The position numbers and the translations under genes were made by a program. The notes below the pieces were generated by a model. The model saw only the letters and a program-made list of their open reading frames with translations. It did not search any database and had not been told where the DNA came from. This document shows, in pieces, positions 2 through 50,032 of a stretch of 64,000 bases of DNA. The DNA comes from Olsenella timonensis (lineage in GTDB: Bacteria > Actinomycetota > Coriobacteriia > Coriobacteriales > Atopobiaceae), in contig NZ_LT635455.1 in the NCBI RefSeq assembly GCF_900119915.1, forward strand, positions 372,001 through 436,000. The letters run 5' to 3'. Position 1 is the stretch's first letter, and every line of letters begins with the position of its first letter.

Positions 2-178
2 ATCCTCGGCGAGCCCGATACCGAGTTCCACGTGGTCAAGCCGGCCACGGTCGAGCACACCTGCGCCACGATCGTGAATCGCATCCCGCAGCTGCTGGCG
101 GCGCCGTGCGGATACGTCACGGCGGACCAGCTCGAGCCGAACGCCTACCTCACGTACCCGATGGAGTTCTACTGCTAG
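2..178 (+). CDS. C-terminal fragment of an NAD(P)-dependent oxidoreductase-like protein
   Basis: Only the last 58 codons are present; the gene enters from the left edge and ends at TAG 176-178. The visible tail contains [20 protein letters not shown], which resembles the C-terminal segment of the diaminopentanoate-dehydrogenase/dihydrodipicolinate-reductase-like oxidoreductases (pattern VNxIPxxxAAPxGxxT). That is pattern recall and not a search result. It is followed by a strong hairpin and then by the xylulokinase gene, so a link to sugar metabolism is possible but cannot be shown from this fragment. Confidence 0.45.
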
Positions 179-8356: not shown

Positions 8357-8399
8357 GGGTGTCCCCTGCGGTTGGTGGTCGTGCATCCCCTCCGTCTCG

Positions 8400-8467
8400 C
8401 CGAGACGGAGGAATTACGTAAAACCCGCCCGATTTTACCTCCGTTTTCCGTAGTTCCTCCGCCTCGG
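8400..8467. repeat. Palindromic repeat, family A, copy 1
   Basis: Arms at 8400-8423 and 8444-8467 form an imperfect 24-bp inverted repeat beginning CCGAGACGGAGGAATTACGT. The same sequence, as a perfect 24-bp inverted repeat, recurs at 47890-47957. A nested hairpin CCTCCGTCTCG/CGAGACGGAGG (8390-8412) overlaps the left arm. Located in the nrdD-nrdG gap. Confidence 0.8.
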
Positions 8468-8522
8468 TGAGGCGGGTCGGTCAAAGGCGGGCGAGAAGTA
8501 CGTCGGACAGAGAAGACTCGCG

Positions 8523-47173: not shown

Positions 47174-47348
47174 GGGACCTCCCTCCGGCGCTCGGCGACG
47201 CTACCGAGCCCCGTCTCGTTGGGGCTGCGGACACTAGGGTAGCGCGCCCGCGCCCTCGGGGCGCGCATGGAGCCCCGGTCGGGCTATCCTATGCTGGACG
47301 TGACGAGGAGGACCGTCACACGAGAGCCACGCGAGGGGAAGGGGTCAC

Positions 47349-47807
47349 ATGAACGACGGCGTGAGCGTATCCGCGGTTGCCGCCGCGGCGAGCGAGTTCA
47401 ACGGCAGGCAGGGCGACGCGCACATGAACTGCGGCGAGTCGGTGATCGCGGCGCTGTGGGACGCCTTCCGCCCGGACTTCCCGCGCGAGCTGGCGGTGGC
47501 GGCCGGCGCCGGCATGGGTCGCGGCATCGGCGGCTCCGGCTGCGTGTGCGGCGCGCTCAACGGCGGCGTTGCCTTCATCGGCCTCGTGACGGCCGACAAG
47601 GCCCGTGCCAAGCCGCTCGTCTCCGAGCTGCACGACGCCTTCCGGGACGGAACCGGCAGGGGCGTCACCTGCTGCCGCGCGCTCACCCGCGGCATGGAGT
47701 GGGGAAGCGCCGAGCGTCGCGCCCAGTGCCAGCGCTTCTGCGCCCTGGCCGCCGGCGAGGCCGCCCGCATCCTGGCCGGTGCGCTCGGCGTCGCCGTGGA
47801 GGACTAG
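47349..47807 (+). CDS. C_GCAxxG_C_C family redox-type protein
   Basis: A 152-aa protein of the small Cys-motif family often found in anaerobes, sometimes beside flavin oxidoreductases. Cysteine-containing segments are HMNCGESVIAAL, GGSGCVCGALNGGVAF, GVTCCRALTRGM and RAQCQRFCALAA; the pattern of C, GCxxG-like, CC and CxxxxC is the family signature. It may bind a redox centre, but no cofactor is proven. It has GAGGGGAAGGGG before its ATG and faces the old-yellow-enzyme-type gene convergently. Confidence 0.78.
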   Translation: MNDGVSVSAVAAAASEFNGRQGDAHMNCGESVIAALWDAFRPDFPRELAVAAGAGMGRGIGGSGCVCGALNGGVAFIGLVTADKARAKPLVSELHDAFRDGTGRGVTCCRALTRGMEWGSAERRAQCQRFCALAAGEAARILAGALGVAVED

Positions 47808-47812
47808 CCGAC

Positions 47813-48056
47813 GCCCGAGCTCACGTCCTTCTCGCCTTACAGCAACCAAAGGGGTCGGGTCCCTTTGGTTGGCCCCCTCTGGTCAGACACCGAGACGGAG
47901 GAACTACGGAAAAGAGGCGCCCTCAGGGTCCGATTTTCCGTAGTTCCTCCGTCTCGGCGAAAGGTCGCTTGACCGAGCGCCCAGCCGACGCCGCGCATGG
48001 GCCCGGGTCGCGCGCGGCGGCCCGGGCCCGAGCTCACGTCCTTCTCGCCTTACAGC
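47813..48056. repeat. Insertion-like region: family B and family A palindromes between 31-bp direct repeats
   Basis: The 242-bp gap holds a family B hairpin (CAACCAAAGGG/CCCTTTGGTTG, 47843-47871) and a perfect 24-bp family A inverted repeat (arms 47890-47913 and 47934-47957). It is bounded by direct 31-bp copies (start GCCCGAGCTCACGTCCTTCT) at 47813-47843 and 48026-48056. The right copy covers the 3' end of the flavoenzyme gene, so the left copy looks like a duplication made during insertion. Confidence 0.78.
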
Positions 48057-50032
48057 GTGTGCGCCACCTCGTAGGCGTCCCAGATGGACGTCATGATGTT
48101 GCCCACCTGGCGGCCGTCGCCGACCTCGTAGACCTCGTAGCCGCGGCCCTTGAGCGCCTCGGCTATCGACGGCTGCGGGCGGAAGCCCACGGCGATGACC
48201 ACGGAGTCGGCCGGCAGCGTCTCGCGCTCTCCGGTCGTGACGTCCTCGACTACGGCGCCCTCGTCGGTCACGGCGGCGATGCGCCTGCCCACGTGCAGCG
48301 GCGTGCCATGGTGGGCGAAGGCGTCGCGCAGGTACATCGCGTTGGGCAGCGGCACCGCGATCCCGCTGGACAGGATGTCGCCGAGCGCCTCCACGATCTC
48401 TACCTCGTGACCCTTGTTGATGAGGTCGAGCGCCATCTCGCAGCCCACGAGCCCGCCGCCGACGATGACCACGTGGTGCCCGAGCGCGCCCTCGTTGCGC
48501 AGCGCCTCGATGCAGCCCACGCACTTCTCGCCGTCGGCGCCCTCGATGGCCGGCATCACGGCCGTCGAGCCCACCGCGAGCACCACCGCGTCGGGCGCGA
48601 GCGCGTCCAGCGCCTCCGGCGTGGCCTCGACGCCCATCCGCACGTCCACGCCGAGGTCTGCCAGCTCGCGCTGGTACCAGGCGTTGAGCTCGCGGACCTC
48701 GACCTTGAAGTCGTGCATGCCGCCCGAGATGAGGTGCCCGCCGAGCTCGTCGGTGCGCTCGAGCAGCGTGACGTCGTGGCCGCGACGCGCCGCCGTGCGC
48801 GCGGCCTCCATGCCGGCCACGCCGCCGCCCACCACCGCGACGTGCCGACGCGTGGTCGCAGGGGTCACGGCGTAGGAGGCGTCGCGCCCGACCTCGGGGT
48901 TGACCGCGCAGCCCACGGGCAGCTGCGCGAAGAGGCGGCCCAGGCAGCCCTGGTTGCAGGCGATGCACGGACGGATTCTCTCGGGGCGCCCGGCCTCGAC
49001 CTTGATCGGGAGGTCCGGGTCGGCGAACATCGGCCGCCCGATCGCCACGGCGTCGAACTTGCCCTCTGCGACGCCCTGCTCGTCGACGCGCACGTCGCCC
49101 ATGCGCGACCCCACGATGATCGGCACGCTCACGGCCTCCTTGGCCCTCTCGGCCAGCTCGACCATGTAGCCGCGCTTGAGGTACATCGGCGGGCATGCGT
49201 AGTAGAACGAGTCGTAGGTGCCGGTGTCCACGTCGAGCGCGTCGTAGCCCGCCTGCTCGAGCAGCTGGCAGATGCGCACGCCCTCCTCGAGGGTGCGGTA
49301 GGCCTCGTCCGAGCCGTCGAAGCTCGCCTGCATGAAGCCCCTGGCGTAGGACTTGAGCCCCAGGCGCATGGTCACGGGGAAGTCCTCGCCGCAGGTCTGC
49401 TTGATGCCCTCGCAGATCTCGCGGCTCACGCGCAGGCGGTTCTCGAGGGTGCCGCCGTACTCGTCGGTGCGGCGGTTGGTGAGCGAGGACGCGAACTGGT
49501 CGAGCAGGTAGCCCCAGTGGATCGAGTGGACCTCGACGCCGTCGAAGCCCGCCCTCTGGGCGATGGCCGCCGCCTCGACGAGCTGGTCCACCTTGCGGTG
49601 GATCTGGTCGACGGTGAGCTCGGGCGACGTCTGGTCGGGCGCGCCGAAGACGGGGTTCTCCGACGGGCCGTAGAGGCCGGGGTAGTTGCGGCCGAGTCCC
49701 AGCGTCAGCTGCACGAAGAAGCGGGCGCCGTAGGCGCGGGTGCGCGTGAGCATGGCGTCGGAGGTGGCGAGGAACGCGTCGGGCGCGGTGCGGAAGGCGC
49801 CGCCGAGCGCGGAGTAGGGGTCGACCTCGGTGTCGGTGTTGAGCGCGCCGGTCTGCAGGAGGCCCATGCCGCCCTGGGCGCGCCGGACAAAGTACTCGAT
49901 GCCCGACGGCGAGAAGGACCCGTCGGGGTTGAGGTAGGTGCCCGTGGTGACCGGCGCCATCACGAAGCGGTTCTTGATGGTGACCTTGCCGATGGAAAAC
50001 GGGCTGCTGAGTGCCGGGAACTTCTCGGGCAT
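48050..50032 (-). CDS. NADH:flavin oxidoreductase, 2,4-dienoyl-CoA reductase-like (FMN, 4Fe-4S, FAD)
   Basis: A 660-aa modular reductase starting MPEKFPALSSPFSIGK at 50032 (GGGAGAGGAGACC upstream). Residues about 1-340 are an old-yellow-enzyme TIM barrel (IKNRFVMAPVTTGTY; GFDGVEVHSIHWGYLLDQFA). CIACNQGCLGRLF supplies Cys356, Cys359 and Cys363, plus Cys near 375, for a 4Fe-4S cluster. The C-terminal half is an FAD/NAD(P) domain (VAVVGGGVAGMEAART; HHVVIVGGGLVGCEMALDL). It resembles FadH, BaiCD-type and enoate reductases of anaerobes; the substrate (enoate, bile acid or other alkene) is undetermined. Its 3' end is duplicated across the repeat cluster downstream. Confidence 0.88.
   Translation of the reverse strand: MPEKFPALSSPFSIGKVTIKNRFVMAPVTTGTYLNPDGSFSPSGIEYFVRRAQGGMGLLQTGALNTDTEVDPYSALGGAFRTAPDAFLATSDAMLTRTRAYGARFFVQLTLGLGRNYPGLYGPSENPVFGAPDQTSPELTVDQIHRKVDQLVEAAAIAQRAGFDGVEVHSIHWGYLLDQFASSLTNRRTDEYGGTLENRLRVSREICEGIKQTCGEDFPVTMRLGLKSYARGFMQASFDGSDEAYRTLEEGVRICQLLEQAGYDALDVDTGTYDSFYYACPPMYLKRGYMVELAERAKEAVSVPIIVGSRMGDVRVDEQGVAEGKFDAVAIGRPMFADPDLPIKVEAGRPERIRPCIACNQGCLGRLFAQLPVGCAVNPEVGRDASYAVTPATTRRHVAVVGGGVAGMEAARTAARRGHDVTLLERTDELGGHLISGGMHDFKVEVRELNAWYQRELADLGVDVRMGVEATPEALDALAPDAVVLAVGSTAVMPAIEGADGEKCVGCIEALRNEGALGHHVVIVGGGLVGCEMALDLINKGHEVEIVEALGDILSSGIAVPLPNAMYLRDAFAHHGTPLHVGRRIAAVTDEGAVVEDVTTGERETLPADSVVIAVGFRPQPSIAEALKGRGYEVYEVGDGRQVGNIMTSIWDAYEVAHTL

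Follow-up and report, generated by a model that had tools for sequence, protein, structure and literature searches.

To our knowledge, wherever a partner protein is known for a family of intergenic palindromes in bacteria, the family is tied to a Y1 transposase. REPINs, in the portion of the report available, have conserved inverted ends, a spacer whose length is constrained, and compensatory changes (PMC3116915), and the TIR repeats of TIRYT genes carry the motif GGGGWSAS, according to the accessible part of their description (PMC3733652). Paired inverted repeats are also bound by AbiE proteins. In the sections of the source at hand, AbiEi binds two 23-bp inverted repeats placed 3 bp apart; the repeat pairs of Rv2827c are 13 bp apart, a wider gap that the authors link to a larger C-terminal domain (PMC7319586).

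The locus compared here with these systems lies in a window of 64,000 nucleotides, positions 372001-436000 of a genome assembled as a single contig of 2,176,737 bp (the own genome, G000). Its source, Olsenella timonensis, is a gut bacterium. A home-made codon-usage caller, which also supplied the genes outside the window, gives 60 genes within it. An insert between two convergent genes of the window joins a REP-type hairpin to a perfect palindrome that we call LIP. The LIP looks like one half of a repeat/protein partnership, and the novelty of the locus sits in this element.

The composite insert and its surroundings

The original prediction had recognized, between exact 31-bp direct repeats, a hairpin of family B (the CCAAAGGG hairpin, our REP-type hairpin) and a perfect 24-bp inverted repeat of family A (our LIP), and the positions of all of these were confirmed. 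The features, in window coordinates, are as follows.

47349-47807, plus strand: C_GCAxxG_C_C family redox gene, convergent neighbour of the insert
47806-47843: flanking repeat on the left, 38 nt (AGCCGACGCC + 28 nt), containing the 31-bp repeat 47813-47843
47828-47835, minus strand: GCGAGAAG octamer inside the left flanking copy
47844-47979: composite unit of 136 bp (REP-type hairpin, LIP and small hairpin), delimited from the second locus in G028 and G030
47843-47871: REP-type hairpin with core GGGGTCGGGTCCC, arms 47843-47853 and 47861-47871
47890-47957: LIP, perfect, with 24-nt arms 47890-47913 and 47934-47957
47914-47933: LIP centre, 20 nt, inverted relative to the copies in G028 and G030
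47963-47974: third, small hairpin, GGTC-GCTT-GACC, conserved in all three copies of the unit
47983-48056: flanking repeat on the right, interrupted by 36 nt, containing the 31-bp copy 48026-48056
47999-48011 and 48017-48029: arms of a GC-rich stem-loop in the 36-nt interruption of the right copy
48050-50032, minus strand: FMN/FAD flavoenzyme gene (Oxidored_FMN + Pyr_redox_2), convergent neighbour, start taken from the home-made gene caller
8398-8469 (own genome 380398-380469): second LIP of the window

The two direct repeats agree at 31 of 31 nt, with their starts 213 nt apart, and the full flanking repeat reaches 38 nt once the 36-nt interruption in the right copy is allowed. At 1000 random positions of the window, direct repeats of at least 30 nt between 110-nt flanks were never met, and those of at least 16 nt were met at 0.1%, the gap of the control element being shorter than that of the insert in both cases. 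The repeats had been described as copies of the 3' end of the flavoenzyme gene. On the minus strand the flavoenzyme reading frame stops at 48050, so this description holds for 7 of the 31 repeated bases (the stop codon and 4 nt) and fails for the other 24, which lie downstream of the gene. The insert is flanked by duplicated local sequence, flavoenzyme stop codon included. The fold of 47800-48060 exceeded all 200 shuffles in stability (z -6.86); a pattern search of the insert found no intrinsic terminator or promoter, and no T-run terminator at the right stem-loop.

When the window locus was searched against the 31 genomes of the genus, the insert was recovered in two of the 30 others, G028 (158 query bases, 89%) and G030 (149, 91%). 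In both, the unit is located after a LysR-type gene, with hairpin, LIP and third hairpin in unchanged order, and the window unit agrees with it at 127/136 positions in G028 and 126/136 in G030; the block ends are sharp and the flanks unrelated. In the own genome the LysR gene lacks the unit, which is single-copy there. The insert is therefore one 136-bp block, present at a different locus in two related genomes. Its LIP centre has been turned around relative to those copies, as 18/20 bases agree with G028 and G030 if the centre is inverted vs. 8/20 if it is read directly; G028 and G030 share one orientation, from which the window copy departs. Intermediates carrying one element alone, which the original prediction had proposed to look for, were not seen among the copies of the block. 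The joint recurrence of all three elements at another locus in 2 of 30 other genomes makes a composite unit, taken alone, highly probable. The composite reading offered at the outset was right in substance, and the original interpretation as a whole was partly borne out.

Within the unit, the REP-type hairpin (11-nt arms, 7 nt between) has an identifiable kin group. The own genome contains two Y1_Tnp genes, and one of them, a RAYT-like gene of 250 aa (L035:1614-2366; own genome 1175113-1175865), has inverted REP-type repeats at both ends that the window hairpin resembles. Its protein matches Pfam Y1_Tnp with 41.4 bits (cut-off 23) and NCBIfam REP_Tyr_transpos with 44.9, under the cut-off of 80. 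Related own-genome REP copies read GGGGTCAG or GGGGACAG, both of which fit GGGGWSAS. As in TIRYT genes, to the extent covered by the available text, the own-genome relatives of the hairpin are inverted copies flanking Y1 transposase genes; unlike the TIRs described there, the window copy, GGGGTCGG, is one base off the consensus and fused to a LIP (PMC3733652). The second Y1 transposase gene (1730085; L244, 1727668-1730561) has CAAAAGGGGACAGACCCCTTTTG repeats at 1729652 and 1730539. A Y1 transposase of the kind that the original prediction had advised to look for exists elsewhere in the genome, in the form of the RAYT-like gene with its inverted REP-type repeats, but it fails to explain the LIPs. 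The long target duplication at the insert is contrary to RAYT action, which predicts none. The idea that REP insertion is generally marked by long flanking repeats was rejected: of 13 further distinct REP clusters (copies of identical sequence counted once), one has such a repeat. In this case, near 529.99 kb of the own genome (L034 4956-5040), an exact 16-bp direct repeat surrounds a single REP-type repeat.

The neighbouring genes have a history of their own. The flavoenzyme protein is nearest to that of Olsenella sp. An188 (89%), followed by Thermophilibacter provencensis (81%). Both neighbour genes are present in An188 without the insert, with a stop-to-stop distance of 57 bp vs. 242 in the window, and in T. 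provencensis different repeats occupy the gap between the two genes. In a one-gene tree of 15 genomes, drawn without support values, G000 groups with G025, G030, G028, and G016, and An188 is placed elsewhere; over the C_GCAxxG stretch, identity is 92% to An188 and 77% to G030. The gene pair 47349-50032 is much nearer to An188 than the neighbourhood tree predicts. Judged from these comparisons, the pair was likely acquired horizontally, and the composite unit probably arrived later.

The octamer GCGAGAAG lies within both flanking repeats, at 47828-47835 and 48041-48048. The window has 34 copies (19 plus, 15 minus; 10 intergenic) vs. 5.0 expected, and the octamer exceeded its third-order Markov expectation in 14 of 14 genomes sampled, the samples being small. 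It is a candidate Chi-like or uptake-sequence-like element; a literature search with all terms combined found no paper on actinobacterial uptake sequences.

Form and distribution of LIPs

A LIP covariance model was built from 19 own-genome copies. At E ≤ 0.01 it matched 23 of the 31 genus genomes, including G012 with three weak matches, and with stricter filters applied to the whole family (140 genomes) it matched 21 of the 31 and none of the 109 others. Among the matches listed, at least 80 sites in 11 genomes were studied, and their centres measured 20 nt in 66 of 80, 21 nt in 13 and 19 nt in one. The arms covary: 92.2% of cells are paired, and 173 were changed on both sides vs. 63 ± 6.6 after shuffling (0/500), with all slid controls far lower. 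The two arms of one LIP differ by 2.78 mismatches, as compared with 3.98 against other elements of the same genome, a likeness absent in G006 alone and weak in the first 19 G000 copies (p 0.034). The centres are themselves self-complementary beyond shuffles (0.352 vs. 0.277). Between genomes, 82 LIP pairs occupy orthologous sites, and their arm type sometimes differs. In the 51 orthologous pairs of the same type (no more than 9/48 arm differences), divergence was 11% for arms, 30% for centres and 31% for flanks, with arms below flanks in 51/51 pairs and below centres in 48/51, a comparison biased toward conserved arms by the selection of pairs and the arm-based search. LIPs are genus-restricted 68-bp palindromes whose arms are conserved and compensate one another and whose centre hardly varies in length.

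All of these elements are intergenic, in that none of 80 sites among the matches listed falls inside a called gene. The same 80 comprise 51 tandem, 20 convergent and 6 divergent sites and 3 at contig edges; for comparison, the window gaps of at least 80 bp (n = 35) comprise 23 tandem, 4 convergent and 8 divergent. At least one gene 3' end adjoins 71 of the 77 listed LIPs with both neighbours called, in keeping with the earlier proposal of a preference for gene 3' ends. Taken by itself, LIP clustering within the own genome fell short of significance (2 intervals <3 kb, p 0.09), and the two lone exact arm tips found there are both inside genes.

A conserved structured RNA shared by many genera would have been a different account of the locus. 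Rfam returned eight matches at E ≤ 5 on 47300-48600, all to eukaryotic microRNA families and far below gathering scores, and nothing on L186; no bacterial Rfam family was found and the LIPs belong to one genus. No description of palindromes of this kind in Coriobacteriia, Olsenella, or Atopobiaceae was found by a literature search conducted mostly without full texts. A blind scan for 24-(18..22)-24 palindromes revealed more arm types in G022, G004, and G016. A LIP family of the G016 type was rejected, since the G016 palindrome occurs once in that genome and G004 holds one half-match to it. The intergenic stretches L053 and L250 hold other palindromes, of the ATTTGAG/CTCAAAT type (T. provencensis) and the CCGTTTTAGGACGG type (G007).

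An AbiEi-like gene bracketed by palindromes

AbiEi is a DNA-binding type of antitoxin. In the own genome, LIPs at 867,657 and 868,953 enclose a gene for a 352-aa AbiEi-like protein (region 867781-868839; L186:11781-12839), and in G002 and others the two sides of the enclosing stretch meet directly, with no such gene between them. The assignment comes from a weak PADLOC AbiEi match (27 bits, E 5.7e-7, residues 68-186); Pfam (E ≤ 0.1), NCBIfam, and PDB gave no match. We take the protein to have a putative winged helix and a putative nuclease-like C-terminus. A DUF1814 nucleotidyltransferase toxin gene is absent beside it in the own genome, where the genes around it encode ABC transporters, a zinc-ribbon protein and a fusion of HAD and thiamine diphosphokinase.

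Ten copies of the gene were found in the stretches analysed, six of them in one common chromosomal neighbourhood. A gene counted as bracketed if each of its sides had, no farther than 400 nt away, a 24-(19..22)-24 palindrome with no more than 5 mismatches. By this measure nine of the ten copies are strongly bracketed (1-5 mismatches in 24, both sides), an association biased for the seven that came from stretches fetched for LIPs. The tenth, in G029, has weak brackets of 9 and 7 mismatches with the CGAGTGACAG motif on both sides, so that all 10 copies are bracketed by palindromes of LIP geometry. None of 58 window genes used as controls passed on both sides at 5 or 7 mismatches, and 6/58 passed on one side at 5. 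Three copies (G022 C2, G022 C18, and G029 C64) were found independently of LIPs, through a DNA-level search that used the gene region as query. The proteins of G022 C18 and G029 C64 share 46 and 42% identity with the first AbiEi-like protein, and the arms of their palindromes are unlike those of the LIP model; the G022 C18 copy is interrupted by stop codons. Arm types around the ten copies are CCGAGACGGAGC, CCGAAACGGAGC, CCGAGTAAGAG, CCGAGAAAGAC, CCGAGTGTGCA, TTCATCATGTTTC, and CGAGTGACAG, and they differ between genomes and between paralogues. The same DNA search, which distant copies would escape, gave no match in 7/7 genomes that are LIP-negative by the model (G002, G007, G009, G010, G016, G021, and G026; G016 has one divergent palindrome) and none in G012; G014, G015, G003, and G027 were left out of it.

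The distances between arms and between proteins are correlated over 7 genomes, with kinship ignored (Mantel): r was 0.72 for the whole protein (p 0.014), 0.73 for residues 1-70 (exact p 0.001), 0.68 for residues 68-190, the part matching AbiEi (p 0.055), and 0.57 for residues 190-320 (p 0.037). The binding of paired inverted repeats by AbiEi and Rv2827c, as presented in the available sections, suggests by analogy that the AbiEi-like protein may bind LIPs (PMC7319586). The arrangement resembles the operators in that account in joining an AbiEi-type protein to paired repeats of fixed spacing, here 24-nt arms 20 apart, and the AbiEi-like protein is larger than its AbiE and Rv2827c counterparts; unlike AbiE as described there, no AbiEii partner gene was found beside it, and the repeats both flank the gene on either side and occur genome-wide (PMC7319586). 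A literature search, mostly without full texts, found no report of AbiEi with dispersed palindromes.

We propose that LIPs are the binding sites of the AbiEi-like protein, each a pair of inverted half-sites, and that the gene for this protein may form a unit with the flanking palindromes. Solo LIPs, the window's included, would then be scattered copies of the protein's site, and the window LIP may have been carried along by the REP part as a block; RAYT action, template switching during replication and recombination are candidate copying steps. The explanation as a whole, that is, a composite block, a LIP family and a bracketed AbiEi-like gene with LIPs as its putative binding sites, has in our estimation slightly better than an even chance of being correct. 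Going further, LIPs and the AbiEi-like protein might constitute a new mobile or selfish system, in which a putative non-HUH and possibly nuclease-bearing binder has its gene framed by its own palindromes, seeds solo LIPs after genes and co-diverges with them; this we put forward tentatively, as a possibility with the odds somewhat against it. If palindromes are indeed tied to an AbiEi-like protein, they would represent a second, independent solution beside the Y1 transposases, and many orphan "AbiEi-like" genes would gain a concrete DNA target. The ten gene/palindrome pairs offer a natural series for following the joint change of protein and site.

Alternative origins of the insert and of LIPs

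The two elements of the insert could have arrived separately, the LIP or the REP first and the other landing beside it at a hot spot, in which case the likeness to G028 and G030 would stem from an ancient double insertion that was later rearranged. Both kinds of element are intergenic and near gene ends, and a related REP lies ~45 nt from another LIP of the own genome (1166.7 kb). That identity between two loci with unrelated flanks stops at both ends of a single 136-bp block, non-palindromic spacer included, makes sequential insertion improbable in our view. A still less probable account is that LIPs are true REPINs spread by RAYT, with the AbiEi-like gene only a frequent neighbour or passenger. 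The design is the same, with two inverted conserved ends, a spacer conserved in length beyond sequence and compensatory changes, and, as in the REPIN/RAYT system, LIPs are intergenic, form genome-specific populations and flank a gene with its own palindromes, so far as the accessible text describes these features (PMC3116915). RAYT-like (Y1_Tnp) genes, moreover, occur in 28/31 genus genomes. LIPs differ from the elements of that account in their 24-nt arms without a GTAG foot, in being tied to no Y1 transposase and in bracketing an AbiEi-like gene (PMC3116915). Read from the alignment, the foot (CGCCGAG/CTCGGCG) has no unpaired GTAG or CGTC tag. Different repeats border the RAYT-like genes at 1175 kb (L035) and, per the listed sites, 1730 kb, whereas the AbiEi-like gene is bracketed every time by arms of its own type. 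Above all, G014 (98% completeness) has 25 LIP matches with both strands counted and no Y1_Tnp match, so a RAYT-like transposase cannot account for LIPs. With the tie to Y1 broken, we place LIPs beside the REP/RAYT systems, as a variation on their way of life, and not among them.

A role at the RNA level, with LIPs as terminators or mRNA stabilizers whose palindrome is kept for RNA folding, is equally unlikely. It would accord with the strong fold of the locus, the arm covariation and the position of tandem LIPs, 36/51 of which are nearer to the upstream stop (median 66 nt). An RNA hairpin needs no fixed centre length, however, and on the sense strand of the 51 tandem sites G-U mismatches were about as frequent as A-C (38 vs. 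41, p 0.82; modest power). Only 6/51 tandem LIPs have a T-rich tail, and terminator-like hairpins lie between the stop and the LIP in 19/51 and beyond the LIP in 5/51. Near-equal G-U and A-C counts, few T-tails and hairpins mostly ahead of the LIP argue, with modest power, against an RNA hairpin. LIPs might instead be site-specific recombination sites bounding gene cassettes, with the AbiEi-like gene as one cargo among others, a reading to which we assign about the same low probability as sequential insertion. In the available part of their description, the dif/pdif modules of Acinetobacter similarly place single accessory genes, some of them toxin-antitoxin-like, between short inverted-arm sites in arrays, but LIP arms are longer and genome-variable (PMC12907356). 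LIPs <3 kb apart enclose mostly single genes (AbiEi-like, AAA_21 ATPase, a DUF3990/HTH pair, NlpC/P60, alcohol dehydrogenase, zinc-ribbon and membrane protein genes). The centres of neighbouring LIPs are sisters (at least 70%, direct or inverted) in 13/17 pairs vs. 5% of 444 other same-genome pairs, although several pairs are mutual orthologues, so that 17 pairs are not 17 events. The toxin-antitoxin-like DUF3990 + HTH pair lies between two LIPs in G030 (L189 2021-3643), and G025 has a solo LIP at that site (L206 2071). Against cassettes, no recombinase was found in a search confined to the Y1 type, the G028 L200 pair looks like a gene duplicated in tandem, and in the G000 5094/7254 pair the upstream flank is shared too; plain duplication explains some pairs. 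With at least one pair attributable to tandem duplication, the cassette-end reading is kept as a rival only.

At L256 (94-5008) in G022, a four-LIP array has centres that are identical or nearly so, in direct or inverted orientation, and surrounds NlpC/P60, AbiEi-like and alcohol dehydrogenase genes.
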